Below, piece after piece: positions 779 through 58,299 of a stretch of 64,000 nucleotides of DNA. The stretch is taken from positions 64,315,949 to 64,379,948 of the forward strand of contig OY987298.1 in the NCBI GenBank assembly GCA_963920635.1, read 5' to 3'. This DNA is from Pseudeuparius sepicola. Taxonomy: Eukaryota > Arthropoda > Insecta > Coleoptera > Anthribidae. Positions within the stretch are counted from its first letter, which is position 1. Every line of letters starts with the position of its first letter. Both the position numbers and the translations under genes were made by a program. Under the pieces are notes generated by a model. The model did not search any database, was not told where the DNA came from, and was given only the letters and a program-made list of their open reading frames with translations.

Positions 779-2026
779 CAAGGCCTACTATAAAGACAGG
801 CCCTGGCGCACAAAAATCACGTGACCATCTTAGTCAGACGTTACATGTCATTTGTCACATAACTGAAAGCGGCAGCTTGGGTTTTGAGAAGTTTTCAATG
901 TTTAAAGTGTTTTTAAACGTCTTAGTTTATATTTTAGAAACAAGTTTGTGTCTAGTGCGCGTGTGTCCTGGCGGAGGGGAACCGCCCAGGTGTTATTATG
1001 GCCTCTGGGTGTCTGGGTGGGAGTCGTGCCGTCCAAGAGTATTGGTGCCGCTCGCACCGACGCGACGCGACGCGTGAGCGCTGTAAGGGGAACTCTCCCC
1101 CGAACCACAAAATAGGGAACCCTGAATGGACTATTATGGACATGGGACAGTATTAGTATTGGACAGTGGAGCCTGAGACACAGAGGGGTGAACTGCTTAC
1201 GGGAGATCCGCGAGTTCAGACGGTCCGGGTGGCTGGAAGCCGTTCCCGTTGACCACGTTCGGATTTGTGTATTTATTGTATTCACCATTCACCTTGTGCG
1301 AAATAAATCAGTGTTGTAACGTACTCCAGGATTTTCATTGTCGACCCACGCCCTGATATGGTTTCTATTCGGTCTTTCACGCTGCCGATCAACTGAGACC
1401 TCGTCAATATTTACAGTATACCTACTAAGGTTAGTGTTCATTTTTATTTCGTAAAAAAATAACCGAAATACCAAATATTCAGTCTGTTTATATTATATTT
1501 ATACATATTACAAAAGCCAGGAAGAAAGTGTCGCCATAACAAACATTTGTTTTGCCTCGGGATGAAAATTTCCGCCAAAAATGGATTCGTCAAATCCCAA
1601 CTGAGATTTAATTTCTAAAAAACCCTTAAGTATGTGTGGCTAACACATTTTCAAGAAAGTGAAACAATAATTAAAGTGGACAAAAGTGTTGTGGGAGGAA
1701 AATACCTATAGAGAATATCACCTAAGCTAAAGGAAGGTGATGTCCCAACAATTTTTGAGAATGTGCCAAAATATTGTGAGTGCAGTGCCGTTTAACTCTC
1801 AGCCTAAAACAGCTGAGGCAGGTTGAAAATTTTGAAAAAACATTTAGAGGAAGCTTGGATGCACAAAACCAATAATGTAATAGATGAAAGAAAACTTGCC
1901 AAATTGTTACGAAATTTGTTTTTTCTACTTATCTCCAAAAATGCCTTTCATTATATAGAACTAAGTTGGTCACGTGACTACGCGATTATGCGTTAGCGCC
2001 GTGGCCTGTCTTTATCGTTGGCCTCG
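779..2026 (+). mobile_element. P-superfamily-like TIR element, copy 1, with THAP relic
   Basis: About 1.25 kb, bounded by imperfect inverted termini: CAAGGCCTACTATAAAGACA on the left, and on the right the reverse complement of CGAGGCCAACGATAAAGACA. The 8-9 bp repeats at 770-778 and 2027-2035 look like its target duplication. The first half (about 880-1320) is relatively GC-rich and contains an AATAAA at about 1303. The second half carries a decayed THAP domain, the N-terminal DNA-binding domain of P-element transposases. THAP domain plus 8-bp TSD argues for the P superfamily, but the catalytic part is missing, so the copy is non-autonomous or internally deleted. A second, inverted copy is at 9238-27560, split by the giant palindrome. 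hAT is the main alternative, since it shares the TSD length. Confidence 0.6.
1543..1795 (+). pseudogene. Broken THAP zinc-finger domain (P-element transposase N-terminus)
   Basis: Two reading frames on the plus strand together look like a THAP domain. The first (1543-1611) reads LPRDENFRQKWIRQI, matching the P-x-D-x3-R-x-KW core, and ends in a stop. The second (about 1634-1795) reads HFQESE, then an in-frame stop, then LKEGDVPTIF, matching the C-x2-H-F and AVPTIF-like landmarks; the expected Cys before HF is lost. THAP domains bind DNA through a C2CH zinc centre and form the N-terminus of P transposases. The frames are interrupted and no start codon or downstream RNase H-like domain follows, so this is a pseudogene. 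Host THAP genes are an alternative source, but the repeated TIR-bounded context favours a transposon. Confidence 0.55.
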
Positions 2027-9237: not shown

Positions 9238-9617
9238 AACAGGCCATGACGCTATCGCATAATCGCGTAGTCACGTGACCAACTTGGTCCTATATCCTAT
9301 ATACCTAATAAAAGGCATTTTTGGAGATAAGTAGAAAAAAAATTCCTAACAATTTGGCGAGTTTTCTTTCATCTATCACATTATTGGTTTTGTGCATCCA
9401 GGCTTTGTATAATTGTTTTTTTTTTCAAAATTTTCAACCTGCCTAAGCTGTTTTGAGCTGAGAGTTAAACGGCACTACACTCAAATATTTTGGTACATTC
9501 TCAAAGATTGTTGGGACAGCACCTCCCTTTAGCTTAGGAGATATTCTCTATAGGTATTTTCCTCCCACAACACATTTATTTGTCCACTTTCTTGAAAATG
9601 TGTTAGCCACACATACA
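9238..9617 (-). mobile_element. P-like element copy 2, terminal half left of the palindrome
   Basis: This is the reverse complement of about 1630-2012 of copy 1, with scattered substitutions and small indels. Shared landmarks include CATAATCGCGTAGTCACGTG near the terminus and the THAP C-terminal segment at about 9450-9610. Homology stops at the CATACA target duplication (9612-9617), where the giant palindrome starts, and resumes at 26459 with the continuation of the same element. Copy 2 was therefore a contiguous inverted copy before the palindrome inserted into its THAP region. Confidence 0.75.
9612..9617. repeat. 6-bp target duplication (left) of the giant palindrome
   Basis: CATACA, repeated at 26459-26464. 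The uninterrupted copy 1 has the corresponding single target (reverse complement around 1625-1636), differing by one base next to the duplication. Confidence 0.8.
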
Positions 9618-9900
9618 AGTAGTATAGCTATGCCGGTTCTGGCGCAATTTCCCCATGTATTTCTTATGGGGGCTAAAACGTGGTCAAAACGTGACCAAAC
9701 TTACCCCCTCCACTCCCAAACCACGCCCCCCCAGCCAATCGCACCGACTCTGAACCCTGCGATAGCCCGAGGGGTGCCGAAGATGTCCGAGTTCGCTGAC
9801 CTTCGCCCCTGCCGCGACCTTCGCGCGCTCGACAGCGAGGGGTGCCGAAGTGCCCGGCTTTCACCGACCGTTGACCTTCGCTCCAGCCGCGACATGTCGA

Positions 9901-10196
9901 GACTCGCAACTAATAAAAACCCTAAATCATAATTAAGCCATGACGTCCCCCTGTCGACCTTTAGCCGCGGCCATGCATGGATTTTTGCTACCACCTCTGC
10001 CTGCGTATTTTTGCGTCCGCGACGCCGAGACACGTCGAGACTCGCAACTAATAAAAACCCTAAATCATAATTAAGCCATGACGTCCCCCTGTCGACCTTT
10101 AGCCGCGGCCATGCATGGATTTTTGCTACCACCTCTGCCTGCGTATTTTTGCGTCCGCGACGCCGAGACACGTCGAGACTCGCAACTAATAAAAAC
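9901..10196. repeat. 138-bp tandem repeat (left arm)
   Basis: Two complete units and the start of a third have period 138 (GACTCGCAAC recurs at 9901, 10039 and 10177). Because 138 is a multiple of three, a 223-residue minus-strand open frame (9701-10372) runs through the array and repeats a 46-residue unit twice. The unit contains the partly self-complementary GCCGCGGCCATGCATGG. Its mirror is at 25880-26175. Confidence 0.9.
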
Positions 10197-10940
10197 CTAA
10201 CACCTATAGAAAAAATATCAGCTTGCAATATGTACGTGATGTAATTCCGCTGAAAAAAAGTACTTTCTCTTTGTCGGAATAAGCGCCTATGAAACGGGCA
10301 CGCTGATCTCATCGGTACTGGCGATAAACAATTTGTAGGAAAAGTGTAATAAAGAATAGATATGAGATACATATGAGTGTATACATTTTCTTGACTACAT
10401 TACCTAAGGATGTATCAAAAATCTATCTTCCTATATTTAGAGACTGCTTCTCAAAGGAAAGTGGACATTACATTTGGGGCATAAATTAACCATTTTTAGT
10501 TGAGTTTATAACCATCTAGGTAAGTAAATTTCTTTAATTCCGAGAAAGCCAGGCCCTGTTTTAAATTACTTGACTAAAATATAATAGGTGCAAAGTTCAC
10601 CAGTTTTTAAAAATATCCCGTCACACGATTATCAAGTTGAAAGACTAGCTGCAAAATCGGATTTTGTACAACGCGTTTCCTGTTTAAAATTTCACCCAGA
10701 AAAAAAAGGTACTAATTCTTACTTATGCCATGTTCACCGTATGATTTTTATACTATTCCGACTTCGAAAACCCAAAGGTATAAGTGTAGCGTGTGGAAAA
10801 AGGTGGAATTAAGGGTTTAAAACCCTTAAACGGTCTATATATGGAATAAAATGAGGGCATGCAACATGTTCTTCAATAATGAAAATTAAAACAATGTTCA
10901 TTTTTTGACTGTCCATTATCCTACCAAGAAAAAGCTTATA

Positions 10941-11217
10941 GCGTCTAAGCGACTATAAAAACGACTCTAAAAACGTCTAAACGACTCTAAAAAACGACTA
11001 GACGACTCGTAAAAACGACTAGACGATTCGAAAAACGACTAGACGATTCGGAAAAAACGACTAAACGACTCTGAAAACGACTAAACGATTCTGGAAAACG
11101 ACTAGACGATTCGAAAAACGACTAGACGATTCGGAAAAAACGACTAAACGACTCTGAAAACGACTAAACGATTCTGGAAAACGACTAGACGATTCTGAAA
11201 AACGACTAGACGACTTG
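10941..11217. repeat. Short-period tandem array (left arm)
   Basis: Units of about 18-22 bp, such as AACGACTAGACGATTCG and AACGACTAAACGACTCTG, alternate irregularly. The right arm carries about 80 bp fewer (24941-25135), a normal sign of slippage after the palindrome formed. A second, shorter run based on GGAATACCATC follows at about 11229-11310. Confidence 0.85.
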
Positions 11218-11374
11218 AAAAAGCGATATACCATGGAATACCATCGAATACCATGAAATACCATCAAAGAAAATGGAATACTATCGAAAACCACGGAATA
11301 CCATAAATGGTCTTGGATATCCCTGTGAAAAAATTTGCCTCGGGGAGAGCATAAAAGGAAATTATCCGTGATCG

Positions 11375-11666
11375 ATGCTCTGTGATCGAAAGATATATAA
11401 GCCTTTGATAATACAATCACTCTCAGTTAAAGACATGTTTTTGTCACTTGAGATTGAACCTAGGAGTTATGGTATCCAACACACCAATGACGGATTAGTC
11501 ATGGGACAAATACCAGTAACTGTTGAAGATAACGTATTATGTATTGGAGATCAAAATTACCCTTACACCAGGTCTGTCTCAACTGCTTTTGAAGAACAAA
11601 CCACAAGGTATTAATGAGAGTGACCTAAAAATATACAAACAATTGTTGATTACTAATTTTCGATAG
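11375..11666 (+). pseudogene. Broken gene fragment resembling the Polinton-associated DUF8207 domain (left arm)
   Basis: One frame (11375-11614) contains YGIQHTNDGLVMGQ, then NVLCIGDQNYPYTR. The next frame (11571-11666) continues with GLSQLLLKNK and then INESDLKIYKQLL before a stop. Tyr-Gly, then a Gly-rich strand, then I-x-G-x-x-Y-x-x-T-x-G-L and a D-L-x-x-Y-K-x-L-L segment is the pattern I associate from memory with DUF8207. That domain occurs in proteins of Maverick/Polinton-type elements; its biochemical role is unknown to me. The frame change falls between the two halves and is present identically in the mirror copy, so the gene was already broken when the palindrome formed. No start codon can be defended. 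Confidence 0.5.
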
Positions 11667-14600
11667 GTTCAACAAATCAGGTTTTAAAAGTGTGTTTAGG
11701 TGCCTATGGTTTCATCTGGTATATGTTCCATACAGGATTCGAACATTAGCCCACATTCCAAAGCCAAACACTCGGCATTTATGTAAAATTCTAGGAAATG
11801 CTTGGCAGTGTGGTAATAATCTCGACGCGCTGTTGTAGCAGGGCTCCGCTGGCTCCCGCAGGCCTCGCCGGTCTCTGTAGACTCAGCAGGTCCCTTTAAT
11901 GATGTGTACCGCAGGCTCCGATTAAATTAAAAAAATTACTATTAACACTAAAATACCCGGACAATAACCATCATTCCAACGCCAAAACACTCAACAGTAG
12001 TATTTCTGAGAATGCATCGCAGCCGGGCGCGGAACTTGTCAGGACAGGTTGACGACCTAAAAACAATTCTCTCTACTTAGATAAAAATAGAATGTCCAAT
12101 AAGATTTTTTTCACACACTTTTATATATAAGCACAGATAACGTAACCATATAAGTATATATTAGAATATTATAAAATATTTAAGCCCCATATAGTTCGAA
12201 TTTGAATGGGATACATGGGTAATATATCTCAACACTTCGTACACAAACAAAACTCGCTCGTTCTTTACAGTTTTATTACTGTGAATTCGGTACCTACTAA
12301 AGCGGCAATATGAAGCGCAGCTCTGATGTATACTAAATATGTTATTATCAAACTTGAGACGCACACATATTTAAAAATATAAATACCGCCGGATGAATGC
12401 AAGGCCAATTTACGGAATATAGCAAAACAATTAGATTATGGACATGGATATTAATTTCTTTAGGTAAAGGTAATAAACATTTGATACTATCGACAGGAGT
12501 CTACGCAAAATAATTGTATCAGTATTCAGCAAATAAAAAAGTTATGGGTACCCGTCACCGATGAAAAAGAATACAAAACTGATAAAATGTTCGTGGGATC
12601 TTGTATATTAAAATATTTAATCGCGTATCTAAGTTGTTATTTTATTCATTGCCCATCCCACAAATTTGGATTTTTTAGCTCTTGTAATCGCTCGATCACG
12701 ATTGAAACTACACTCATAAAATGTTTAAAAAAATGCCCACCCCACGTGATCGCTCGACAAAAACAAAACGTGCAAAGTGGCTACTGCTCGAGGTTTGACC
12801 TTTGTCCTTAGGGACACGTGTGACCCAGTTGATGTAGAATCTAAAAAAACCCTGTAAATCATACTTCCATAGCATAGAATCTAAAATCCCCCGGTACAGT
12901 ACGGATGAAAATTTCAAACCAGGCATAATCAACATGTACGTTCAAAGTAAAAAAAACTTGTCGGTCAACTGTTTAACCCCGAAATTTTGTTGATTTCTAG
13001 GAATAAAAAGAAATACTGCAATTGTAAGTCCAAAGCTATTTACGCTATCAAATTCGTTTAAAATGCGAATGATAATTTGCCGCATTAAAACCAGGCGTGA
13101 AAAATTCAACATACGTCCCTAAGAAGTTCAACCAATTTTACCCTGGAAATACAACATTTTTAATGAATAAAATATCGAACATACAACAACCCCCTTCTAA
13201 ATATAGTATAAATCATGTTTTTTTTTTGATAATGTAGAAAGCTAAACTGAAAATTGTTGCTAGAGGTTCTAAAAACCGGGGTGCCAAAAATCAACTATTA
13301 TTAGAAAATACGCTGATGTCATAATATAGCCGTCGATGTCACCGTTAGCGTGTCCTATGAAAAATGCGTTCTGCTTAATAAGGTGTAAAAAAATCCATGA
13401 CGGGGCTTAGATGAATAAATAAAGTTTGATGTATGTGAAAGTATAGACTAAATTTTCGTATAGCCCGCGTGATCGCTCGAGGTGGCGGTATCCTCTGGAC
13501 TAGAAAATATCATATCGGCTCAATCTCCAAACATTTTCATTTTGAATTATACGTTTTCATTGATGATAGATCTAGCAAGAAAATTGGACTGGACTCGATA
13601 TGAGAGACATTAATCTAACTTTCACTAAACTGCACGTACTACTTAGAGGGTTGTAAGCCGTTTTAATAAAAGCACCAGACTTGCTTAAAATTCATGGCTA
13701 AACGTTAACATAATGTCATACAAACATGCGGCACGCAAAATATTAAGAATAGATATATGAGCTCAAACATGTTGATCAAAAAATATATTTATTTCTGGCG
13801 ATTTAGTTTACCAGTTATCATTTAAAAACAAAACCTGGTCCCAATATTCAGTGAAAATAATAATTGAAAACTTTGTACCTTATAAACCACCACTAAATAG
13901 CGAGTCGGAAATAAGTAAAAAAATATATATAAATATATTATTTTGATATTATAGCCGAAACTGAATTTATTGGGGTGAAGATGTAAGGAAATATTTTTAG
14001 CTAGGAAAAAGTAATGCAATTATCATAGGTACTGGTTGCAGAACCCGTTGTCAGTTTTGCAAGGATTTTTGATACAAATATAATTGCTAACGTTTAATTT
14101 GTTTACCCCATTTACGAAAATGATAACAAAATTGGATCAGACAAGATGTTTTTTCGAAGTATAGTTTTTAAACACAGGGTGCCACCACCGGTTTTACGAT
14201 ATAGGTTTAAAAATGCGACGCAAATACATAAAAAAATACCCTAGAGATAAGAAAACAAAATACAACTCACCAAAAGATTCTTGGTGATGTATAAAAAGAA
14301 ATCAGGTTACATCTAATGCCCCAGACAGTAGAATAAACATCCCCCGAGCGATGAGATATAACCAAACATCATTTTTCCAACGGCACAGTCATTTTCACGG
14401 GAAAAACAACCAGTAACCGTTCAAATTCCATAGATAGATACTGCCGTAATCCAAAATTTCACTGAACTACGCGTATCTATTATACTGAAGTAGGTACTGA
14501 TACACTTCCATCTTTCCAAAGAAAAACAAACACGAAACTCAGACTTTTCATATATTACAACGCCTCGATAGAGTCTTTGTGGCCACGACCGAGAATCTAC

Positions 14601-14950
14601 TGAAGCAAGTGCGACGCATAGGACGTGAAAAGTGCCGAGTTGGTTTTATTAAACAATGAAACTTATACCTACGTATATATATAAAATAAATGAGAAATAT
14701 GCCAGAGATTTGAAACCTAATTGAGTTGCAAGTTTGAGGTCCAAAAAAATATTGGTTTTAATTTTTTAAGGTGAGAAACACATCTAACAGCCAGTTTGGA
14801 AATATACAAGGCAAAAAAAAGTAGTGATGTGGCTGCCCCATTTTATGTTTTATACAGGTTGGATTATTTTAGAATAGTTGTTCAATAGACCGAGACAACA
14901 TCATAAACGCTTCCCGTTAGAACAGAATCTGATGAAAAGAAAAATTCCAT

Positions 14951-15185
14951 CTGAGTCAAGCTACTAGATAACCAAAATAAAAAATACTGAACGTTATAAA
15001 ATTTAAAAAATCATATTTTCAACGGATTTTTATCCTCTGAAAATGGCGTAAAATTCAGTTTCACTGGGTCAAGCTAGGTGGTAACTATATAACCAAAATA
15101 AAAAAAATACTGAACGTTATAAAATTAAAAAAATCATATTTTCATGGGATTTTTGTCCTCTGAAAATGACTCAAATTCAGTTTCA
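14951..15185. repeat. Duplicated unit of about 120 bp (left arm)
   Basis: Two diverged copies share ACCAAAATAAAAAA, TACTGAACGTTATAAAAT, AAATCATATTTTCA and TCCTCTGAAAATG. The mirror is at about 21052-21286. The repeat carries no coding potential. Confidence 0.75.
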
Positions 15186-16254
15186 ATAAGTTACTAATTG
15201 GGGTAATAGAGGAAAAATCTTAAATAGGAATTCTGAGACAACGAGGCTGAGAGTAAATAACATACAAAAATCTTGTGCGTTGACTTTGAACTGAATTTAA
15301 TAATTAGGTTTAATAACGACAATTTTCTCGATTATCTAGAATCAAAAATATTGCAAGTGACAATTCACTATTTTCTCGACATTATGTAAAGCCTTATTAT
15401 TGCGTCGTAAATTAAAAGATCCAAAAATATTGGCATCAATTGTTTAGTAAATGTGGTTAAAATATGTCTACTTTATCAACAGTTATTTGTAACAGCTTAT
15501 TATCTTGGAAGCGTAAACTCTTTGAATTTTTTAGACAAAAAGTTGTAGTTTAATAATGGTCAGTTGGATTCCTTTTTGAATCATGTTTGCGTATTACCTA
15601 CAAGGATTTACAACCTCCAAACATAGAAATCGCTCATTTTAACCCGATTTAATAAAAATTTCACCAAAAACAATACTTTCAGTCATATAATACACTTCTG
15701 ATTAATAAAAAAGGCACTATAGTAATAATGAGATTTTCAATGGAATTTTTATAGACTGTTTGCCCATTTTGAGAGTCTGTTTGCTAGCTTTTGGGGGTAT
15801 TCCTTGATATTTTAGACGGATAAAAATGAATAACATTGGGTTTCCTAACTAAAATACAAAACGCACTGTTGACTTTACTTCCGTGGATAGTAAGCCTATA
15901 ATACGTATCGAAAACAGAGAAATATTCAGGTCAAGAAAAAAGTAGCCTAATTTACAAGTTTGGGAATCAAAAACTACCTTTTGTCTTTTAATTTTGATGA
16001 GAAAATACGTCTAATTCGTAAGTCAAATAAATGGGACATCATGAAAGATATACTAATAATTGAACAAATGCTATCTCAGTTCTATAGGCACAAAGGTACT
16101 ATGGGTAGTAATAGTTTTGGGATCAAAAGACAAGCTTTTAAATTTGTTAAGAAAATACGTCTAATGAAATTGAAAGTAGTAACTAGATTTTGGTTAACAT
16201 TTCGTTAACGCGTTGATGAATGTTTGATGCAAGTGAAAAGTAGATCGAATTTTC

Positions 16255-17455
16255 CAAAAAACGGTGACTGACCAAACAAGTTATTATAAAAAGTTGCTCA
16301 GGAGACCGATGTAACCTAGAAAACGCCTTTCCTTCGAATAGAAAGTGACATAAATAGTTACAAAATGGGACTTAGACGGATATTCGATGCAAGTGAAAAG
16401 TAGGCAGAATTTTTGAAAATCGGGACGGACCAAAAAATTATTAAGTTGATCGGGAGGTTGAGATAACCTATGAAACGCCTTTCATTCGAATAGAATCTGA
16501 CAAAAAAAATCCAAGAAAATTTTAGACGACTGTTTGCAAGTGAAAAGTATACAGATTTTTTTCGAAAACCGGCGACTGACAAAAAAAATATACTTATTAG
16601 AAAATTTTGCTCGGGAGACCGAGGTAACCTAGAAAACGCCTCTCGTCCGAATATAATCTGAAATAAAATTCCATGATGGGGACTTAGGCGAATGTTTGAT
16701 GCAAGTGAATAGTATAGACCGAATTCCCGAAAAAAACGCCATTCGTTTGAATATAATAAAAAAATCGAATAAGGAACGGGACTTATTAGACGAATATTTG
16801 ATGCAAGTGGAAAAGTATAGATAGGTTTTTTCGAGTGACTGATAAAAATAGTTAGTCGGAAGGCCCCCCAGATAACATTGATATTTTGTTTGAACAAAAT
16901 CTGAAAAAAAACTAGACGTGACTTAGACGAATGTTTGCAAGTGAAAAAAAAAAAACAAAAAAATTATTAGAAAAGTTGACCGGAAGGTTTAACCTAGGAA
17001 ACGCCTTTCATTCGAATAGAATATGACAAAAAAAAATCCGAGACGTGACTTAGACGAATGTTTGCAAGTGGAAAAAAAAAACAAAAAAATTATTAGAAAA
17101 GTTGATCGGAAGGTTTAACCTAGGAAACGCCTTTCAATCGAATAGAATATGACAAAAAAATCCGAGACGTGACTTAGACGAATGTTTGCAAGTGAAAAAG
17201 AAACAAAAAATTATTAGAAAAGTTGATTGGGAGGCCGAGGTAACCTAGGAAACACCTTTCATTCGAATAGAATGTAACAAAAAAAAAATTCCAAGACGTG
17301 ACTTAGACGAATGTTTGCAAGTGAAAAGCATACAGATTTTTTTTTTCGAAAAACGGCGGCTGACCAAAAATTATTAGAAAAGTTGTTCGGGGCCGTGGTA
17401 CCTAGGAAACGCCTTTCATTCAAACAAAATGCGACAAAAAAAAATTTAGACATAG
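16255..17455. repeat. Array of degenerate units of 110-165 bp (left arm)
   Basis: About nine units share AACCTAGGAAACGCCTTTC, CATTCGAATAGAAT, GACTTAGACGAATGTTTG and AAAATTATTAGAAAAGTTG, with spacing between roughly 110 and 165 bp. The inner units near 17000-17250 are the most alike. Long open frames on the minus strand (for example 16358-16897) simply translate the repeat. The mirror is at about 18785-19985. Confidence 0.85.
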
Positions 17456-18112
17456 ATGAATAAGAATGCAAGGACGATTGGAGTGATCTATAACCCTAAA
17501 CAGAAGGGAGAAAATGCCCCTCAATAAGTCGAAATTTGTGTGTTTTCCATATGATTCAATGAGATTTTTACAAATTATTGGAAACTTAATGACGTGAGAA
17601 AAATAAAACGTCCATTGTCTGCTCACATTTTAGGAAATTTATCACAATTTATTCTAATTAATAATACCCTTTGTTTATGGAATCCCTAGTTAGCCAATGT
17701 GTCATGAGTAAGTATATGACAGGTCAAATACGTATATAATGTAAAGTAAAAATATAGTTAACAAGGCGTTAACGAGCATTGACAACATGTTAACGAACGA
17801 GGTGCTAACAACGCGATAACTTAACTTTGACAACTCGTTAACGAAGCGTTGACGAGTGTGGACCCTCCAAATCTTAGGAGATACATTCGCAACCTTACAC
17901 CGGATCACGCGTCACAAAGATGCTACCTTAAATTAATGCGTTGACAACTCGTTAATCCCAGGAGATACAATCGCAACTTACACCAGATCAAACTCAACTG
18001 TGGAATCCTGTGACGTCACAGAGATGCTACCTTACATTTCTTTTAGGTAGATAACCTAACCTAACATTATTGTCGCGGTGTCCAAGAGGTTAGCGACTGG
18101 TAAACCGATTGC

Positions 18113-18208
18113 AATTGGATTTGGGAGAGGTGTATCAGAGGCGGATTAAGTCAGTTTTGGATTTGGGAGAGGTGTATCAGAGGCGGATTAAGTCAGTTTT
18201 GCTCAATA
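18113..18208. repeat. Central spacer of the palindrome with a 42-bp tandem duplication
   Basis: The last paired bases are at 18112 and 18209. The unpaired centre contains two consecutive copies (18119-18160 and 18161-18201) of a 42-bp unit starting ATTTGGGAGAGGTGTATC, plus a few bases on either side. Such a short asymmetric centre is what one expects at the junction where an inverted duplication formed. Confidence 0.85.
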
Positions 18209-21200
18209 GCAATCGGTTCACCAGTCGCTAACCTCTTGGACACCGCGACAATAATGTTAGGTTAGGTTATCTACCTAAAAGAAATGTAAGGTAGCATCTC
18301 TGTGACGTCACAGGATTCCACAGTTGAGTTTGATCTGGTGTAAGTTGCGATTGTATCTCCTGGGATTAACGAGTTGTCAACGCATTAATTTAAGGTAGCA
18401 TCTTTGTGACGCGTGATCCGGTTAAGTTATCGCGTTGTTAGCACCTCGTTCGTTAACATGTTGTCAATGCTCGTTAACGCCTTGTTAACTATATTTTTAC
18501 TTTACATTATATACGTATTTGACCTGTCATATACTTACTCATGACACATTGGCTAACTAGGGATTCCATAAACAAAGGGTATTATTAATTAGAATAAATT
18601 GTGATAAATTTCCTAAAATGTGAGCAGACAATGGACGTTTTATTTTTCTCACGTCATTAAGTTTCCAATAATTTGTAAAAATCTCATTGAATCATATGGA
18701 AAACACACAAATTTCGACTTATTGAGGGGCATTTTCTCCCTTCTGTTTAGGGTTATAGATCACTCCAATCGTCCTTGCATTCTTATTCATCTATGTCTAA
18801 ATTTTTTTTGTCGCATTTTGTTTGAATGAAAGGCGTTTCCTAGGTACCACGGCCCCGAACAACTTTTCTAATAATTTTTGGTCAGCCGCCGTTTTTCGAA
18901 AAAAAAATCTGTATGCTTTTCACTTGCAAACATTCGTCTAAGTCACGTCTTGGAATTTTTTTTTGTTACATTCTATTCGAATGAAAGGTGTTTCCTAGGT
19001 TACCTCGGCCTCCCAATCAACTTTTCTAATAATTTTTTGTTTCTTTTTCACTTGCAAACATTCGTCTAAGTCACGTCTCGGATTTTTTTGTCATATTCTA
19101 TTCGATTGAAAGGCGTTTCCTAGGTTAAACCTTCCGATCAACTTTTCTAATAATTTTTTTGTTTTTTTTTCACTTGCAAACATTCGTCTAAGTCACGTCT
19201 CGGATTTTTTTTTGTCATATTCTATTCGAATGAAAGGCGTTTCCTAGGTTAAACCTTCCGGTCAACTTTTCTAATAATTTTTTTGTTTTTTTTTCACTTG
19301 CAAACATTCGTCTAAGTCACGTCTAGTTTTTTTTTCAGATTTTGTTCAAACAAAATATCAATGTTATCTGGGGGGCCTTCCGACTAACTATTTTTATCAG
19401 TCACTCGAAAAAACCTATCTATACTTTTCCACTTGCATCAAATATTCGTCTAATAAGTTCCGTTCCTTATTCGATTTTTTTATTATATTCAAACGAATGG
19501 CGTTTTTTTCGGGAATTCGGTCTATACTATTCACTTGCATCAAACATTCGCCTAAGTCCCCATCATGGAATTTTATTTCAGATTATATTCGGACGAGAGG
19601 CGTTTTCTAGGTTACCTCGGTCTCCCGAGCAAAATTTTCTAATAAGTATATTTTTTTGTCAGTCGCCGGTTTTCGAAAAAAATCTGTATACTTTTCACTT
19701 GCAAACAGTCGTCTAAAATTTTCTTGGATTTTTTTTGTCAGATTCTATTCGAATGAAAGGCGTTTCATAGGTTATCTCAACCTCCCGATCAACTTAATAA
19801 TTTTTGGTCCGTCCCGATTTTCAAAAATTCTGCCTACTTTTCACTTGCATCGAATATCCGTCTAAGTCCCATTTTGTAACTATTTATGTCACTTTCTATT
19901 CGAAGGAAAGGCGTTTTCTAGGTTACATCGGTCTCCTGAGCAACTTTTTATAATAACTTGTTTGGTCAGTCACCGTTTTTTGGAAAATTCGATCTACTTT
20001 TCACTTGCATCAAACATTCATCAACGCGTTAACGAAATGTTAACCAAAATCTAGTTACTACTTTCAATTTCATTAGACGTATTTTCTTAACAAATTTAAA
20101 AGCTTGTCTTTTGATCCCAAAACTATTACTACCCATAGTACCTTTGTGCCTATAGAACTGAGATAGCATTTGTTCAATTATTAGTATATCTTTCATGATG
20201 TCCCATTTATTTGACTTACGAATTAGACGTATTTTCTCATCAAAATTAAAAGACAAAAGGTAGTTTTTGATTCCCAAACTTGTAAATTAGGCTACTTTTT
20301 TCTTGACCTGAATATTTCTCTGTTTTCGATACGTATTATAGGCTTACTATCCACGGAAGTAAAGTCAACAGTGCGTTTTGTATTTTAGTTAGGAAACCCA
20401 ATGTTATTCATTTTTATCCGTCTAAAATATCAAGGAATACCCCCAAAAGCTAGCAAACAGACTCTCAAAATGGGCAAACAGTCTATAAAAATTCCATTGA
20501 AAATCTCATTATTACTATAGTGCCTTTTTTATTAATCAGAAGTGTATTATATGACTGAAAGTATTGTTTTTGGTGAAATTTTTATTAAATCGGGTTAAAA
20601 TGAGCGATTTCTATGTTTGGAGGTTGTAAATCCTTGTAGGTAATACGCAAACATGATTCAAAAAGGAATCCAACTGACCATTATTAAACTACAACTTTTT
20701 GTCTAAAAAATTCAAAGAGTTTACGCTTCCAAGATAATAAGCTGTTACAAATAACTGTTGATAAAGTAGACATATTTTAACCACATTTACTAAACAATTG
20801 ATGCCAATATTTTTGGATCTTTTAATTTACGACGCAATAATAAGGCTTTACATAATGTCGAGAAAATAGTGAATTGTCACTTGCAATATTTTTGATTCTA
20901 GATAATCGAGAAAATTGTCGTTATTAAACCTAATTATTAAATTCAGTTCAAAGTCAACGCACAAGATTTTTGTATGTTATTTACTCTCAGCCTCGTTGTC
21001 TCAGAATTCCTATTTAAGATTTTTCCTCTATTACCCCAATTAGTAACTTATTGAAACTGAATTTGCGTCATTTTCAGAGGACAAAAATCCCATGAAAATA
21101 TGATTTTTTTAATTTTATAACGTTCAGTATTTTTTTTATTTTGGTTATATAGTTACCACCTAGCTTGACCCAGTGAAACTGAATTTTACGCCATTTTCAG

Positions 21201-24200
21201 AAGATAAAAATCCGTTGAAAATATGATTTTTTAAATTTTATAACGTTCAGTATTTTTTATTTTGGTTATCTAGTAGCTTGACTCAGATGGAATTTTTCTT
21301 TTCATCAGATTCTGTTCTAACGGGAAGCGTTTATGATGTTGTCTCGGTCTATTGAACAACTATTCTAAAATAATCCAACCTGTATAAAACATAAAATGGG
21401 GCAGCCACATCACTACTTTTTTTTGCCTTGTATATTTCCAAACTGGCTGTTAGATGTGTTTCTCACCTTAAAAAATTAAAACCAATATTTTTTTGGACCT
21501 CAAACTTGCAACACAATTAGGTTTCAAATCTCTGGCATATTTCTCATTTATTTTATATATATACGTAGGTATAAGTTTCATTGTTTAATAAAACCAACTC
21601 GGCACTTTTCACGTCCTATGCGTCGCACTTGCTTCAGTAGATTCTCGGTCGTGGCCACAAAGACTCTATCGAGGCGTTGTAATATATGAAAAGTCTGAGT
21701 TTCGTGTTTGTTTTTCTTTGGAAAGATGGAAGTGTATCAGTACCTACTTCAGTATAATAGATACGCGTAGTTCAGTGAAATTTTGGATTACGGCAGTATC
21801 TATCTATGGAATTTGAACGGTTACTGGTTGTTTTTCCCGTGAAAATGACTGTGCCGTTGGAAAAATGATGTTTGGTTATATCTCATCGCTCGGGGATGTT
21901 TATTCTACTGTCTGGGGCATTAGATGTAACCTGATTTCTTTTTATACATCACCAAGAATCTTTTGGTGAGTTGTATTTTGTTTTCTTATCTCTAGGGTAT
22001 TTTTTTATGTATTTGCGTCGCATTTTTAAACCTATATCGTAAAACCGGTGGTGGCACCCTGTGTTTAAAAACTATACTTCGAAAAAACATCTTGTCTGAT
22101 CCAATTTTGTTATCATTTTCGTAAATGGGGTAAACAAATTAAACGTTAGCAATTATATTTGTATCAAAAATCCTTGCAAAACTGACAACGGGTTCTGCAA
22201 CCAGTACCTATGATAATTGCATTACTTTTTCCTAGCTAAAAATATTTCCTTACATCTTCACCCCAATAAATTCAGTTTCGGCTATAATATCAAAATAATA
22301 TATTTATATATATTTTTTTACTTATTTCCGACTCGCTATTTAGTGGTGGTTTATAAGGTACAAAGTTATCAATTATTATTTTCACTGAATATTGGGACCA
22401 GGTTTTGTTTTTAAATGATAACTGGTAAACTAAATCGCCAGAAATAAATATATTTTTTGATCAACATGTTTGAGCTCATATATCTATTCTTCATATTTTG
22501 CGTGCCGCATGTATGTATGACATTATGTTAACGTTTAGCCATGAATTTTAAGCAAGTCTGTTGCTTTTATTAAAACGGCTTACAACCCTCTAAGTAGTAC
22601 GTGCAGTTTAGTGAAAGTTAGATTAATGTCTCTCATATCGAGTCCAGTCCAATTTTCTTGCTAGATCTATCATCAATGAAAACGTATAATTCAAAATGAA
22701 AATGTTTGGAGATTGAGCCGATATGATATTTTCTAGTCCAGAGGATACCGCCACCTCGAGCGATCACGCGGGCTATACGAAAATTTAGTCTATACTTTCA
22801 CATACATCAAACTTTATTTATTCATCTAAGCCCCGTCATGGATTTTTTTACACCTTATTAAGCAGAACGCATTTTTCATAGGACACGCTAACGGTGACAT
22901 CGACGGCTATATTATGACATCAGCGTATTTTCTAATAATAGTTGATTTTTGGCACCCCGGTTTTTAGAACCTCTAGCAACAATTTTCAGTTTAGCTTTCT
23001 ACATTATCAAAAAAAAAAACATGATTTATACTATATTTAGAAGGGGGTTGTTGTATGTTCGATATTTTATTCATTAAAAATGTTGTATTTCCAGGGTAAA
23101 ATTGGTTGAACTTCTTAGGGACGTATGTTGAATTTTTCACGCCTGGTTTTAATGCGGCAAATTATCATTCGCATTTTAAACGAATTTGATAGCGTAAATA
23201 GCTTTGGACTTGCAATTGCAGTATTTCTTTTTATTCCTAGAAATCAACAAAATTTCGGGGTTAAACAGTTGACCGACAAGTTTTTTTTTACTTTGAACGT
23301 ACATGTTGATTATGCCTGGTGTCCCTAAGGACAAAGGTCAAACCTCGAGCAGTAGCCACTTTGCACGTTTTGTTTTTGTCGAGCGATCACGTGGGGTGGG
23401 CATTTTTTTAAACATTTTATGAGTGTAGTTTCAATCGTGATCGAGCGATTACAAGAGCTAAAAAATCCAAATTTGTGGGATGGGCAATGAATAAAATAAC
23501 AACTTAGATACGCGATTAAATATTTTAATATACAAGGTCCCACGAACATTTTATCAGTTTTGTATACTTTTTCATCGGTGACGGGTACCCATAACTTTTT
23601 TATTTGCTGAATACTGATACAATTATTTTGCGTAGACTCCTGTCGATAGTATCAAATGTTTATTACCTTTACCTAAAGAAATTAATATCCATGTCCATAA
23701 TCTAATTGTTTTGCTATATTCCGTAAATTGGCCTTGCATTCATCCGGCGGTATTTATATTTTTAAATATGTGTGCGTCTCAAGTTTGATAATAACATATT
23801 TAGTATACATCAGAGCTGCGCTTCATATTGCCGCTTTAGTAGGTACCGAATTCACAGTAATAAAACTGTAAAGAACGAGCGAGTTTTGTTTGTGTACGAA
23901 GTGTTGAGATATATTACCCATGTATCCCATTCAAATTCGAACTATATGGGGCTTAAATATTTTATAATATTCTAATATATACTTATATGGTTACGTTATC
24001 TGTGTTTATATATAAAAGTGTGTGAAAAAAATCTTATTGGACATTCTATTTTTATCTAAGTAGAGAGAATTGTTTTTAGGTCGTCAACCTGTCCTGACAA
24101 GTTCCGGCTAGCGGATGTGAGTCATCCGCGCCCGGCTGCGATGCATTCGCAGAAATACTACTGTTGAGTGTTTTGGCGTTGGAATGATGGTTATTGTCCG

Positions 24201-24491
24201 GGTATTTTAGTGTTAATAGTAATTTTTTTAATTTAATCGGAGCCTGCGGTACACATCATTAAAGGGACCTGCTGAGTCTACAGAGACCGGCGAGGCCTGC
24301 GGGAGCCAGCGGAGCCCTGCTACAACAGCGCGTCGAGATTATTACCACACTGCCAAGCATTTCCTAGAATTTTACATAAATGCCGAGTGTTTGGCTTTGG
24401 AATGTGGGCTAATGTTCGAATCCTGTATGGAACATATACCAGATGAAACCATAGGCACCTAAACACACTTTTAAAACCTGATTTGTTGAAC

Positions 24492-24783
24492 CTATCGAAA
24501 ATTAGTAATCAACAATTGTTTGTATATTTTTAGGTCACTCTCATTAATACCTTGTGGTTTGTTCTTCAAAAGCAGTTGAGACAGACCTGGTGTAAGGGTA
24601 ATTTTGATCTCCAATACATAATACGTTATCTTCAACAGTTACTGGTATTTGTCCCATGACTAATCCGTCATTGGTGTGTTGGATACCATAACTCCTAGGT
24701 TCAATCTCAAGTGACAAAAACATGTCTTTAACTGAGAGTGATTGTATTATCAAAGGCTTATATATCTTTCGATCACAGAGCAT
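24492..24783 (-). pseudogene. Broken gene fragment resembling DUF8207 (right arm)
   Basis: Mirror of 11375-11666. The first frame (24544-24783) is identical in protein sequence to the left-arm copy, and the second half follows in another frame below 24587. The same frame break is present, so the lesion predates the inverted duplication, or gene conversion has kept the two arms alike. Confidence 0.5.
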
Positions 24784-25879
24784 CGATCACGGATAATTTC
24801 CTTTTATGCTCTCCCCGAGGCAAATTTTTTCACAGGGATATCCAAGACCATTTATGGTATTCCGTGGTTTTCGATAGTATTCCATGGTCTTTGATGGTAT
24901 TTCATGGTATTCGATGGTATTCCATGGTATATCGCTTTTTCAAGTCGTCTAGTCGTTTTTCAGAATCGTCTAGTCGTTTTCCAGAATCGTTTAGTCGTTT
25001 TCAGAGTCGTTTAGTCGTTTTTTCCGAATCGTCTAGTCGTTTTTCGAATCGTCTAGTCGTTTTTACGAGTCGTCTAGTCGTTTTTTAGAGTCGTTTAGAC
25101 GTTTTTAGAGTCGTTTTTATAGTCGCTTAGACGCTATAAGCTTTTTCTTGGTAGGATAATGGACAGTCAAAAAATGAACATTGTTTTAATTTTCATTATT
25201 GAAGAACATGTTGCATGCCCTCATTTTATTCCATATATAGACCGTTTAAGGGTTTTAAACCCTTAATTCCACCTTTTTCCACACGCTACACTTATAGCTT
25301 TGGGTTTTCGAAGTCGGAATAGTATAAAAATCATACGGTGAACATGGCATAAGTAAGAATTAGTACCTTTTTTTTTCTGGGTGAAATTTTAAACAGGAAA
25401 CGCGTTGTACAAAATCCGATTTTGCAGCTAGTCTTTCAACTTGATAATCGTGTGACGGGATATTTTTAAAAACTGGTGAACTTTGCACCTATTATATTTT
25501 AGTCAAGTAATTTAAAACAGGGCCTGGCTTTCTCGGAATTAAAGAAATTTACTTACCTAGATGGTTATAAACTCAACTAAAAATGGTTAATTTATGCCCC
25601 AAATGTAATGTCCACTTTCCTTTGAGAAGCAGTCTCTAAATATAGGAAGATAGATTTTTGATACATCCTTAGGTAATGTAGTCAAGAAAATGTATACACT
25701 CATATGTATCTCATATCTATTCTTTATTACACTTTTCCTACAAATTGTTTATCGCCAGTACCGATGAGATCAGCGTGCCCGTTTCATAGGCGCTTATTCC
25801 GACAAAGAGAAAGTACTTTTTTTCAGCGGAATTACATCACGTACATATTGCAAGCTGATATTTTTTCTATAGGTGTTAG

Positions 25880-26175
25880 GTTTTTATTAGTTGCGAGTCT
25901 CGACGTGTCTCGGCGTCGCGGACGCAAAAATACGCAGGCAGAGGTGGTAGCAAAAATCCATGCATGGCCGCGGCTAAAGGTCGACAGGGGGACGTCATGG
26001 CTTAATTATGATTTAGGGTTTTTATTAGTTGCGAGTCTCGACGTGTCTCGGCGTCGCGGACGCAAAAATACGCAGGCAGAGGTGGTAGCAAAAATCCATG
26101 CATGGCCGCGGCTAAAGGTCGACAGGGGGACGTCATGGCTTAATTATGATTTAGGGTTTTTATTAGTTGCGAGTC
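25880..26175. repeat. 138-bp tandem repeat (right arm)
   Basis: Mirror of 9901-10196, with the same two-and-a-fraction units. A plus-strand 223-residue open frame (25704-26375) runs through it and is identical to the left-arm frame. Confidence 0.9.
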
Positions 26176-26458
26176 TCGACATGTCGCGGCTGGAGCGAAG
26201 GTCAACGGTCGGTGAAAGCCGGGCACTTCGGCACCCCTCGCTGTCGAGCGCGCGAAGGTCGCGGCAGGGGCGAAGGTCAGCGAACTCGGACATCTTCGGC
26301 ACCCCTCGGGCTATCGCAGGGTTCAGAGTCGGTGCGATTGGCTGGGGGGGCGTGGTTTGGGAGTGGAGGGGGTAAGTTTGGTCACGTTTTGACCACGTTT
26401 TAGCCCCCATAAGAAATACATGGGGAAATTGGCCTTGAACCGGCATAGCTATACTACT

Positions 26459-26464
26459 CATACA
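26459..26464. repeat. 6-bp target duplication (right) of the giant palindrome
   Basis: CATACA, identical to 9612-9617, directly after ...CTATACTACT. Confidence 0.8.
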
Positions 26465-40595: not shown

Positions 40596-40728
40596 GAGAC
40601 TAAAAGCATAAGCTACTTGGGAATTGAAATTGACAATTTCTTAAAATGGGACGTACATTTATCAGTATTAACTAAAAAGTTAAGATCTATTTTATATAAG
40701 TTTAAAAAAATATGTTGCATCTTAAATA
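40596..40728 (+). pseudogene. LINE RT thumb fragment, part 1 (upstream of mariner insertion)
   Basis: The frame reads ISYLGIEIDNFLKWDVHL, then LTKKLRSILYKFKKICCIL. This is the YLG-I-x-ID-x2-L-x-W-x-x-H block after the RT catalytic core of Jockey/CR1/I-type LINEs. It breaks off at the mariner-type element at 40731 and resumes at 42344 in the same order, so the LINE copy was there first. Confidence 0.7.
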
Positions 40729-40730
40729 TA

Positions 40731-42341
40731 CAGTGTGTCCCAAATTCGATGCTCACCATTGGGATCTCGGTAACTACAAGAGATAGCGAGTCGGTTAAAT
40801 GGGGAAAGTTTTAGACAATTTTATGGTCAATCTGATGCCGCCGAGAAATCAAGGCTAACTGGGATCGTTTTCGAGTTATTACAAAAAAAACCGAATTTTA
40901 TCATTTTCGTTTTTCTTAAATATCTTAGAAACCGATGGTTTTTCAAAGACAGGACTTTGACATTGTTAAGGCACATTTGTCCAGCCTTTTAAGCGGTAAT
41001 GTCAGTTTCTTTAAGAAAGTTTTCATTTTCGAGATATGACTCACAACTTTTGATTTTCTTATGGACGCTATCTTGGATTTTTTTACATGAAATTCTCTTT
41101 CCAATGATGTGTCACACTAATGATTTTTTCGTTAGTTGTAACACTTAAAAGCGTTTTTTTGCCTAATACTAAGTAGGCCATGACAAGTCTGTCAAAACAA
41201 ATGCAACAAGCCAAACATTGAATCCAAATTTTTGTTGAGATCTGGATTCCTTAATACCATATGGGTTATTAACAGCCCAGTAATGGTGCTTATGTTTATT
41301 AAAAATGCCATTGTTATGAAATCTTGTTTCATCGGTCCAGCAAATGTTTAATGGAAAGTTATCAATAACTTCACACTGACTGTTAAACCAATGACAGAAA
41401 TCAAGTCGGCGTTCAGTATTTCCCGGCCTTAACTTTTGCACTATCACGGGTTTATAGGGGTGATATTTTTTGTCAAGTATGTATGAATAGTCGTTTTCGG
41501 CAAAAGAGTTCTGCAACTTATCTCTCGAAATGAAATCGTCGGTGCTTCATTAAACTTTGTTCAATGTTTTCAACATCTATTGGCGCAATCGATTGGAACC
41601 ATATTTCGGTCTGGGCACAACAAAACTCTCATGTTGTTCTAAATTCCTACTCAATCTAAGAAAAATGTAACGGTGAGGCTGCTGCCTTTCAGGGAATAAT
41701 GTATGATAAACTCTTGTTGCCACTGTACTACTTCTATAGTTTTTTTGTGTAACAATAATTGTACATATCCACCTTTTCGCTAGTACTAAACGGCATTTTT
41801 ACACATATCTCAAAACACTGACGGCTTTATAACAATAACAACAACTGAGAGTTTCATTTGTTTTGACGGACTTGTCATGGCCTACTTAGTATTAGACAAA
41901 AAAAAACGCTTTTAAGCGTTACAACTAACGAAAAAATCATTAGTGTGACATATCATTGCAAAGAGAATTTAATGTAGATTTCGAATTTGTAAAAATCCAA
42001 GATGGCGTCCATAAGAAAATCAAAAGTTGTGAGTCATATCTCGAAAATGAAAACTTTTTTAAAGAAACTGACATTACCGCTTAAAAGGTTGGACAAAAGT
42101 GCCTTAATAATGTCAAAGTTCTGTCTTTGAGAAACCATCGGTTTCTAAGATATTTAAGAAAAACGAAAATGATACAATTCGGTTTTTTGGTAATAACTCG
42201 AAAACGATCCCAGTTAGCCTTGATTTCTCGGCGGCATCAGATTTACCATAAAATTGTCTAAAACTTTCCCCATTTAACCGTCTCTCTATCTCTTGTAGTT
42301 ACCGAGATCCCAATGATGAGCATCGAATTTGGGACACACTG
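40731..42341. mobile_element. Tc1/mariner-type element with TIRs of about 480 bp
   Basis: It starts CAGTGTGTCCCAAATTCGAT and ends with the inverse, ATCGAATTTGGGACACACTG. TA lies on both sides (40729-40730 and 42342-42343). The arms at 40731-41210 and 41855-42341 are near-identical inverted repeats, very long for this superfamily. Between them lies a truncated minus-strand transposase. It sits inside a LINE open frame, which gives an unambiguous insertion point. Confidence 0.85.
41169..41796 (-). pseudogene. Truncated Tc1/mariner-like transposase
   Basis: Minus strand. The start MPFSTSEKVDMYN is followed by a stop and frame change, with residues resembling the N-terminal helix-turn-helix of this family: STVATRVYHTLFPERQQPHR and PRPKYGSNR. 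The last frame (41169-41516) has RRLDFCHWFNSQ, then NICWTDETRFHNNGIFN and HKHHYWAVNNPYG and FGFNVW. This is the D-E-x-x-F...N-x-H-x-Y-W...NVW block around the first catalytic Asp (WTDE). The protein then runs into the TIR, so the second Asp and last acidic residue are missing. It is inactive and internally deleted. Confidence 0.7.
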
Positions 42342-42343
42342 TA

Positions 42344-42553
42344 TACAAGATTAGACAAGTATATTTTGCTCTGGTTTATTCATTGTTACAATATGGCGTT
42401 GTGGGCTGGGGTGGAGCATAGAAATATGGTTTGCAAAAAATCTTTCAAGAAACATTTAACCAGTTGGATAAGATCCCTACCACGGTCAGTTATTAAAAAA
42501 TATATATTAATCTTTCATAAAAGGGAAATACATAACCACCTCTATTCGTGACT
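42344..42553 (+). pseudogene. LINE RT thumb fragment, part 2
   Basis: Right after the mariner element the LINE frame continues: YKIRQVYFALVYSLLQYGVV and GWGGA, then QKIFQETFNQLDKIPT with stops and frame changes. The S-x-LQYG-x-x-x-WGG-A block normally follows the segment at 40596-40728, which confirms one LINE split by the insertion. Confidence 0.7.
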
Positions 42554-46499: not shown

Positions 46500-48899
46500 C
46501 TTGCCACATTTTCGTGAAGATGGAAGGTCCAATGGATTTCTTGATTTTTGAGGCCGAGCGACGGCTGGACTTTGGGGTGGGAAATATTTAAAACGCAGTT
46601 CAGGGTTTCTAGGGGTATTGGTAATGAAGGAGTGCTTGAGCCACAATTTGGTGAAGAGGGAAGGTCCACCGGATTGTTTTGTCTCGATTTTTAAGAAAAA
46701 AGTCCCAGCGACGGGGGGACTAGGGGGCGAGAATAAATATTTCGCGGTGTGGGGCCTCTAAGGGTGTCGGAACCGAACGAGTGCTTGAGCCACAATTTGG
46801 TTAACAGGGAAGGTTCGCCGGACTGTTTTGTCTCGATTTTTGAGAAAAAAGTCCCAGCGACGGGGGGACTAGGGGGCGAGAATAAATATTTCGCGGTGTA
46901 GGGCCTCTAAGGGTGTCGGAACCGAACGAGCGCTTGAGCCACAATTTGGTAAAGAAGGAAGGTCCACCGGACTGTTTTGTCTCGATTTTTGAGAAAAAAG
47001 TCCCAGCGACGGGGGGACTTGGGGCCGAAAATAAATATTTCGTGGTTCAGGGTCTCTAAGGGTGTCGGAACCGAACGAGTGCTTGAGCCACAATTTGGTG
47101 AACAGGTAAGGTTCACCGGATTGTTTTGTCTCGATTTTTGAGAAAAAAGTCCCAGCGACGGGGGGACTAGGGGGCGAGAATAAATATTTCGCGGTTTAGG
47201 GTCTCTAAGGGTGTCGGAACCGAACGAGTGCTTGAGCCACAATTTGGTGAACAGGGAAGGTTAACCGGATTGTTTTGTCTCGATTTCTGAGAAAAAAGTC
47301 CCAGCGACGGGGGGACTAGGGGGCGAGAATAAATATTTCGCGGTTCAGGGTCTCTAAGGGTGTCGGAACCGAACGAGTGCTTGAGCCACAATTTGGTGAA
47401 CAGGGAAGGTTAACCGGATTGTTTTGTCTCGATTTCTGAGAAAAAAGTCCCAGCGACGGGGGGACTAGGGGGCGAGAATAAATATTTCGCGGTTCAGGGT
47501 CTCTAAGGGTGTCGGAACCGAACGAGTGCTTGAGCCACAATTTGGTGAACAGGGAAGGTTCACCGGATTGTTTTGTCTCGATTTCTGAGAAAAAAGTCCC
47601 AGCGACGGGGGGACTAGGGGGCGAGAATAAATATTTCGCGGTTCAGGGTCTCTAAGGGTGTCGGAACCGAACGAGTGCTTGAGCCACAATTTGGTGAACA
47701 GGGAAGGTTAACCGGATTGTTTTGTCTCGATTTCTGAGAAAAAAGTCCCAGCGACGGGGGGACTAGGGGGCGAGAATAAATATTTCGCGGTTCAGGGTCT
47801 CTAAGGGTGTCGGAACCGAACGAGTGCTTGAGCCACAATTTGGTGAACAGGGAAGGTTAACCGGATTGTTTTGTCTCGATTTCTGAGAAAAAAGTCCCAG
47901 CGACGGGGGGACTAGGGGGCGAGAATAAATATTTCGCGGTTCAGGGTCTCTAAGGGTGTCGGAACCGAACGAGTGCTTGAGCCACAATTTGGTGAACAGG
48001 GAAGATTCACCGGATTGTTTTGTCTCGATTTTTGAGAAAAAAGTCCCAGCGACGGTGGGACTAGGGGGCGAGAATAACTATTTCGCGGTTCAGGGTCTCT
48101 AAGGGTGTCGGAACCGAACGAGTGCTTGAGCCACAATTTGGTGATCAGGGAAGGTTCACCGGATTGTTTTGTCTCGATTTTTGAGAAAAAAGTCCCAGCG
48201 ACGGGGGGACTAGGGGGCGAGAATAAATATTTCGCGGTTCGGGGTCTCTAAGGGTGTCGGAACCGAACGAGTGCTTGAGCCACAATTTGGTTAACAGGGA
48301 AGGTTCACCGGATTGTTTTTTCTCGATTTTTGAGAAAAAAGTCCCAGCGACGGGGGGACTAGGGGGCGAGAATAAATATTTCGCGGTTCAGGGTCTCTAA
48401 GGGTGTCGGAGCCGAACGAATGCTTGAGCCACAATTTGGTGAACAGGGAAGGTTCACCGGATTGTTTTGTCTCGATTTTTGAGAAAAAAGTCCCAGCGAC
48501 GGGGGGACTAGGCGGCGAGAATAAATATTTCGCGGTTCAGGGTCTCTAAGGGTGTCGGAACCGAACGAGTGCTTGAGCCACAATTTTGTTAACAGGGAAG
48601 GTCCACCGGATTGTTTTGTCTCGATTTTTGAGAAAAAAGTCCTAGCGACGGGGGGACTAGGCGGCGAGAATAAATATTTCGCGGCTTAGGGTCTCTAAGG
48701 GTGTCGGAACCGAACGAGTGCTTGAGCCATAATTTGGTGAACAGGTAAGGTTCACCGGATTTTTTTGTCTCGATTTTTGAGAAAAAAGTCCCAGCGACGG
48801 GGGGACTAGGGGGCGAGAATAAATATTTCGCGGTTTAGGGTCTCTAAGGGTGTCGGAACCGAACGAGTGCTTGAGCCACAATTTGGTGAACAGGGAAGG
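46500..48899. repeat. 149-bp-monomer satellite array, about 16 units
   Basis: Successive monomers are spaced 149 bp apart and share GAGCCACAATTTGGTGAACA, AGAAAAAAGTCCCAGCGACG, AATAAATATTTCGCGG and TCTCTAAGGGTGTCGGAACC. The first unit (about 46500-46650) is clearly diverged. Units from about 47200 to 48000 are nearly identical, and those after 48000 vary more. The array stops inside a monomer where the gypsy LTR begins at 48900. Overlapping 74-residue minus-strand frames are translations of the monomer (149 is not a multiple of three), not genes. Confidence 0.95.
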
Positions 48900-51250: not shown

Positions 51251-51253
51251 TTT

Positions 51254-51271
51254 TGGCGCCCAACGTGGGGC
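51254..51271 (+). promoter_or_regulatory. Primer-binding site, copy 1
   Basis: TGGCGCCCAACGTGGGGC, three bases after the LTR end, where a tRNA 3' end would prime minus-strand DNA synthesis. The TGGCGCC start is of the tRNA-Lys-like type common in insect gypsy elements; the exact tRNA is inferred. Confidence 0.8.
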
Positions 51272-51533
51272 ACGATTCTTCAGAGGGGCCTGTTGTTTTT
51301 AAAGGGGGCCTGTTTTTGAAGGAGTTTGTCCTATTTTTGAGAGGTTACACGTTTTTGCGGAGGCAGTTGGTTGTCTTACAGTTTTAGGGTTGGTAAGTGA
51401 CTCGGGTTCTGGTGAGTGAACTTCTTGGTAATAGTTTTGTCTTGCGATCGGTAGTATTAGTGGAAGCGTGGTATATGGTACTATAGTTGTTTAATAGGGT
51501 ATCGTGTACACCGCATTGGGACCAATCGGCAGG

Positions 51534-52783: not shown

Positions 52784-52803
52784 ATAGTCGTAATAGGAAC
52801 GCT
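52759..52803 (+). promoter_or_regulatory. -1 programmed ribosomal frameshift signal, copy 1
   Basis: The heptamer GGGAAAC (52759-52765) has zero-frame codons GGA AAC, the canonical X-XXY-YYZ layout. It is followed by a 7-nt spacer and a perfect 9-bp stem, AGCGTTCCT (52773-52781) with AGGAACGCT (52795-52803), and a 13-nt loop. The gag stop UAA begins at the last base of the first stem strand. Slipping back one base joins the protease frame, which is open through this point. Confidence 0.85.
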
Positions 52804-55922: not shown

Positions 55923-55935
55923 ATTTTCAGGAAGT

Positions 55936-55945
55936 AAAGGGGGAG
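55936..55945 (+). promoter_or_regulatory. Polypurine tract, copy 1
   Basis: AAAGGGGGAG directly before the TGTGACG start of LTR 2; primes plus-strand DNA synthesis. It lies 14 bp after the pol stop codon. Confidence 0.85.
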
Positions 55946-58296: not shown

Positions 58297-58299
58297 TTT

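Follow-up and report, generated by a model that had tools for sequence, protein, structure and literature searches.

The genome of the anthribid beetle Pseudeuparius sepicola contains a young, multi-copy family of giant palindromic transposons in which no genes were detected; its structural type is foldback, and we file it as a giant non-autonomous foldback family. The distribution of sequence variants between arms and copies suggests, in addition, that the two arms of a copy appear to have been made equal before insertion. To explain these observations, we favour a model, to which we give roughly even chances of being correct, in which an integrase or transposase acting in trans, with cuts staggered by 6 bp, mobilizes the family, and copies arise via a fold-back intermediate. 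The ends shared among copies, the 6-bp target site duplications (TSDs), an empty site, the dispersal of the copies, the arm in which no coding capacity was found and the variant pattern all support this model.

A palindromic insertion of 16.8 kb

The window, by which we mean the whole stretch of 64,000 nucleotides of contig OY987298.1 that was analysed, carries at 9618-26458 a single insertion of 16,841 bp, delimited by self-comparison and arm-to-arm alignment. Its parts, together with the related empty site, are as follows.

9612-9617, plus strand: left copy of the TSD, CATACA, read from the sequence
9618-18117, plus strand: left arm of the palindrome, 8,500 bp, with the end AGTAGTATAG, from the arm alignment
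9886-10197, plus strand: 138-bp tandem repeat in the left arm, 2.3 copies, mirrored at 25879-26190
10961-11226, plus strand: 20/21-bp tandem array in the left arm, with a shorter mirror copy at 24936-25114
16914-17327, plus strand: 126-bp tandem array in the left arm, with a mirror copy at 18917-19335
18118-18203, no strand: central loop, non-palindromic, 86 bp, in which a 42-bp unit occurs in about two exact copies
18204-26458, minus strand: right arm of the palindrome, 8,255 bp, from the arm alignment
26459-26464, plus strand: right copy of the TSD, CATACA, read from the sequence
1482-2009, minus strand: relative of the flanks without the insertion (empty site), from alignment to the joined flanks

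The original prediction had described one transposon insertion with inverted arms of 8.3-8.5 kb, an exact 6-bp TSD and an empty-site relative at 1590-1640, and all of this holds: CATACA is duplicated exactly, the arm alignment gives the two lengths listed above, and the empty site is real. Both flanks joined through one CATACA align to 1482-2009 on the minus strand with 475 of 543 columns identical and 34 gaps, and the alignment runs unbroken across the insertion point. Only the centre, put at 96 bp, had to be corrected, to 86 bp. The proposed self-alignment likewise returned a near-perfect palindrome: its longest exact inverted match measures 1,260 bp or more, while none exceeded 24 in 20 mononucleotide shuffles. 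In an alignment of 8,526 columns, the arms show 19 mismatches and 297 gap positions; about 100 bp present additionally in the left arm at 12818-12917 and the different length of the array 10961-11226 in the two arms contribute to the gaps. Inverted repeats thus account for 8,500 plus 8,255 of the 16,841 bp, tandem repeats lie inside the terminal inverted repeats (TIRs) and the middle is non-coding, which is the organization of a foldback element. Just inside the ends, 9640-9644 and 26432-26436 differ at four of five bases, and the letters at 9640-9644 are those of a sibling family (L054), a pattern that exchange of a short tract between the two families would produce.

Protein-coding arms were considered and rejected. 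A Pfam search of the left arm with 72 stop-to-stop open reading frames (ORFs) of at least 42 codons, a cut-off at which spliced genes with shorter exons would escape detection, gave weak matches only, the best of them (E 0.0078) at chance level. The largest frame in the arm, of 223 aa at 9701-10372 on the minus strand, overlaps the 138-bp repeat at 9886-10197 and matched no Pfam family at E 1. A tblastn comparison of the left arm with the proteins of 66 ORFs, taken in and around loci that bear polB, gave no match at E 0.01, Rfam and tRNA scans of the window returned nothing, and an exact 26-base pattern of the terminal motif did not occur in IMG/VR viral contigs. The expectation of a giant non-autonomous foldback form lacking a replication or capsid gene is therefore upheld for the arm, in which none was found.

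Other repeats occupy the remainder of the window. A 149-bp satellite at 46594-48900 (15.5 copies, 95% match) adjoins LTR-type repeats, and tandem Gypsy-type elements with 975-aa pol frames extend over 48899-64000; their LTRs of about 0.9 kb, at 48899-49808, 55945-56854 and 63091-64000, are seemingly shared between elements. A 1.6-kb element with TIRs of 490 bp lies at 40727-42345 and includes a fragment (41211-41546) that is related to a DDE_3-type transposase.

Dispersed copies and the symmetry of their arms

Searching the genome with the terminus, a check suggested at the outset, revealed that further copies exist, so the family does not fall to the refutation named beforehand, the lack of any second copy. 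Queries of 383 and 103 bp were run against 769 Mb in 16 contigs, and the best 40 of more than 900 candidates were scored for each; at least 76 distinct ends were obtained. These combine into at least 32 convergent pairs with a spacing below 60 kb, and 12 listed ends have no partner. Among the pairs listed, the spacing is 15.2-17.8 kb in 20 of 32 and exceeds 25 kb in seven, the shortest pair measuring 10.4 kb and the longest 53.8 kb. Nine copies were read (the window copy, C4, C11a, C8, C3a, C3b, C2a, C9 and C11b), and all nine are palindromes of one common arm. Eight have an exact 6-bp TSD, different in each; in the ninth, C11b, the left end is altered and no TSD was found, and this end is also the exception to the presence of AGTAGTATAG at 17 of the 18 ends. 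The central part is gone in C3b, one arm ends early in C11b, and C4, C3a and C2a carry several kb of additional DNA on one side only. Where the centre is intact, the copies looked at have a common loop, which stands in either orientation and contains the 42-bp unit once or twice. In C8, element positions 407-2690 form a diverged block that is symmetric across both arms, each about 94% like the window copy there and 98% elsewhere.

Arm blocks were aligned across up to 18 arms of the nine copies, and six blocks entered the main count, the loop-nearest block being excluded because it was covered by only 10 arms. In these six blocks, divergence was 0.130% within a copy versus 0.777% between copies, and the variable columns comprised 66 confined to one arm and 60 found in both arms of one copy only; one column had more than two states. 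The nearest neighbour of an arm was its own partner in 17 of 18 cases, the exception being the left arm of the window copy, which is nearest to a C4 arm. Of the 41 variants common to several copies, 37 occupied both arms symmetrically and four were asymmetric, two of these four falling in a gap-rich stretch. When the loop-nearest block was included, 59 of 67 within-copy differences were private to one arm. Private variants were also tallied copy by copy, at places where both arms of that copy were aligned, as follows.

Window copy: 10 in one arm, 1 in both arms
C4: 5 in one arm, 1 in both arms
C3a: 8 in one arm, 1 in both arms
C2a: 9 in one arm, 1 in both arms
C8: 2 in one arm, 38 in both arms
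C3b: 1 in one arm, 5 in both arms
C9: 7 in one arm, 6 in both arms
C11a: 4 in one arm, 3 in both arms
C11b: 6 in one arm, 4 in both arms
All nine copies: 52 in one arm, 60 in both arms

Because shared variants are mostly symmetric and later differences are mostly limited to one arm in four of the nine copies, the arms appear, on this comparison of sequences, to have been equalized before insertion. Unrenewed inheritance of the palindromes would make shared variants asymmetric, and 37 of 41 are symmetric instead; conversion after insertion would place the private variants of the window copy, C4, C3a and C2a in both arms or erase them, and this is not what these copies display. C8 and C3b may each have inserted recently from a diverged source or be old copies that were converted, and C9, C11a and C11b are intermediate between the patterns of renewal and conversion. 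Polishing by the assembler could have inflated the identity of the arms.

An unlikely alternative that nevertheless deserves weight is a foldback element that moves by ordinary cut and paste and whose arms are homogenized, once inserted, by gene conversion, a process that keeps the arms of Y-chromosome palindromes alike. It would account for the greater identity within than between copies, and the private variants of C8 and C3b, mostly present in both arms, would fit conversion as well as renewal; the four asymmetric shared variants and the window arm nearest to C4 may also be counted against renewal. Conversion is, however, at odds with the 32 one-arm versus 4 both-arm private variants of the window copy, C4, C3a and C2a together, and with the large one-arm insertions that remain in C3a and C2a. 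Moreover, if conversion were that slow, the daughters of a source would inherit its one-arm differences, whereas asymmetry is seen in only 4 of the 41 shared variants.

Polintons, other superfamilies and the search for a partner

Polintons (Mavericks) have AG termini and an overall size comparable to that of the window element, and they are the leading candidate superfamily for this family, although membership is unproven. The original prediction had proposed it, and the family's size, 6-bp TSD (eight of nine copies) and AG termini (17 of 18 ends) do fit, whereas neither a Polinton gene nor a coding partner with these ends was found. The TSD of Polintons is also 6 bp according to a published account (PMC10045372); the difference is that the window element is almost entirely TIR, and genes for PolB, a retroviral-type integrase, or an ATPase, protease or capsid were not found among the left-arm ORFs.

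It is possible, but doubtful, that the family is a true Polinton derivative whose TIRs grew until nothing else was left and which relies on the protein-primed PolB and the integrase of Polintons; this reading overlaps the model that we favour, which leaves the machinery open. The TSDs and termini speak for it, as does the presence in the same genome of Polinton genes and of a palindromic polB element. The genome has at least 152 DNA_pol_B_2 matches, and in one family polB is accompanied, in neighbouring frames, by an integrase and a Pox_A32-type ATPase. On the other side, the arm retains no trace of a Polinton gene, and among the matches listed, none of 86 polB places, hand-picked at about one per gene, lies inside any of the 32 end pairs, one polB being located 11.6 kb outside the pair C11:37042266-37058646. 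In addition, about 20 kb of one Polinton family (two loci, with its ends not reached) contains no related end and no similarity to the window family, two matches of 16-19 bases being at chance level.

A young Polinton family occupies ten loci (L036, L038-L041 and L043-L047, on C1, C2, C3 and C11), which share about 99.1% identity or more over their main aligned piece, 4.1-4.3 kb long; its polB frame reaches 1,254 aa, and integrase and ATPase neighbours are present at one locus. A Pfam scan of the whole L038 frame did not return DNA_pol_B_2, which we take as a filter effect, the previously matched part scoring 103.6 bits.

A palindrome that does carry polB also occurs in this genome. The element G000 (C5:31295471-31310982, L048-L050) is a palindrome of 15.5 kb, each side of which has a polB frame of 1,272 aa. 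Its arms are 99.9% alike over their outer 1.83 kb, the 148 bp read at its centre are palindromic (90.5%), and its left arm scores 144 bits for PF03175. Neither a TSD nor an AG end was found at its ends. Since a polB-bearing palindrome exists, palindrome formation extends beyond the geneless family; G000 is a parallel to that family, and a link between the two is a possibility. Five more inverted convergent polB pairs are listed (C7:27.33 Mb, C3:42.02 Mb, C3:44.26 Mb, C11:39.47 Mb and C2:74.77 Mb), of which, by the match listing, three share the pattern of G000 and two have another.

No autonomous partner was found among the ends and polB matches listed. The sibling family has ends that are 93% like those of the window family over the first 114 bp and 91% over positions 132-174, has its own end pairs among the ends listed and, in the one member sampled, has internal arrays 77% like those of the window family. 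The first sibling end found, C4:32675597, lies 8.2 kb from a polB; because it has no partner among the ends listed, this proximity is probably due to chance. A second candidate, the 4.75-kb sibling pair C1:97431451-97436203, holds in 301 midpoint bases a piece resembling the HTH part of a Tc1-like transposase, with weak Pfam matches only and 32% identity over 73 residues to a Tc1-like transposase. Across the genome this gene family is matched 151 times, and no match besides that at its own place coincides with an end pair in the lists compared by eye; we therefore read the fragment as a nested insertion and rejected the pair as a partner.

Derivation from another superfamily with 6-bp TSDs, for example IS3EU or GingerRoot, is improbable: the TSD length agrees, but according to the same account (PMC10045372) their termini are TA..TA, and occasionally TG..CA in GingerRoot, compared with AG..CT here. 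The family also has neither the TA TSD of Tc1/mariner elements nor the 8-10 bp TSD of Mutator-type elements, its TSD being 6 bp in eight of nine copies and none being found in the ninth. Finally, false palindromes are a known long-read artefact, but an origin from misassembled fold-back reads is very hard to credit when the same ends occur at dozens of places, each of eight copies has a different 6-bp TSD, an empty site exists and each of the nine copies has at least one private one-arm variant.

Proposed fold-back copying and comparison with known elements

Because the loop is common to the copies and one arm seems to have been renewed from the other, we infer a fold-back DNA intermediate. 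A single strand of the element would fold on itself at the 86-nt loop and pair over 8.3 kb. One arm would then serve as template for the other, either because synthesis primes itself and continues beyond the loop or because mismatch repair acts on the hairpin, and the renewed palindrome would enter the target as a duplex. The leading, though unproven, candidate for supplying these activities would be a PolB and integrase of Polinton type. A close alternative to such an intermediate is that a break in one arm is repaired from the other, as proposed for Galileo (PMC3573991).

Besides Polintons, two Drosophila elements are the nearest comparisons. As described (PMC4079207), Tetris of Drosophila virilis resembles the window family in being non-autonomous, in having long TIRs with internal tandem arrays and a non-coding middle, and in sharing its TIR tips with another family; its TSD, in contrast, is 8-10 bp, and its authors suggest Mutator, whereas the TSD here is 6 bp, the arms exceed 8 kb, the middle is 86 bp and 20 of the 32 listed pairs are near full size. 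Galileo, of the P superfamily, likewise has copies consisting of two TIRs, which are 98-100% alike within a copy and longest on non-autonomous copies, and its authors propose that TIRs grow by break repair from another TIR; the TIR length given there, 1,107 bp, is however far shorter than arms of more than 8 kb (PMC3573991). Among open-access papers, as judged from titles and the beginnings of abstracts, we found no palindromic Polinton and no foldback element with arms this long.

A bolder and still more tentative proposal is that these elements are selfish palindromic replicons, which would be copied via an 8-kb DNA hairpin with the help of a protein-primed PolB and an integrase of Polinton type, one arm rewriting the other in each cycle; the palindromic polB elements would then be autonomous or parallel forms.

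The symmetry test, applied to many copies, can tell renewal at the time of transposition from repair after insertion, and is thus relevant to foldback elements generally. Instability would be expected of near-perfect palindromes this large with so short a spacer, yet those described here spread recently as whole palindromes. The family offers a natural system in which to seek a fold-back DNA intermediate.
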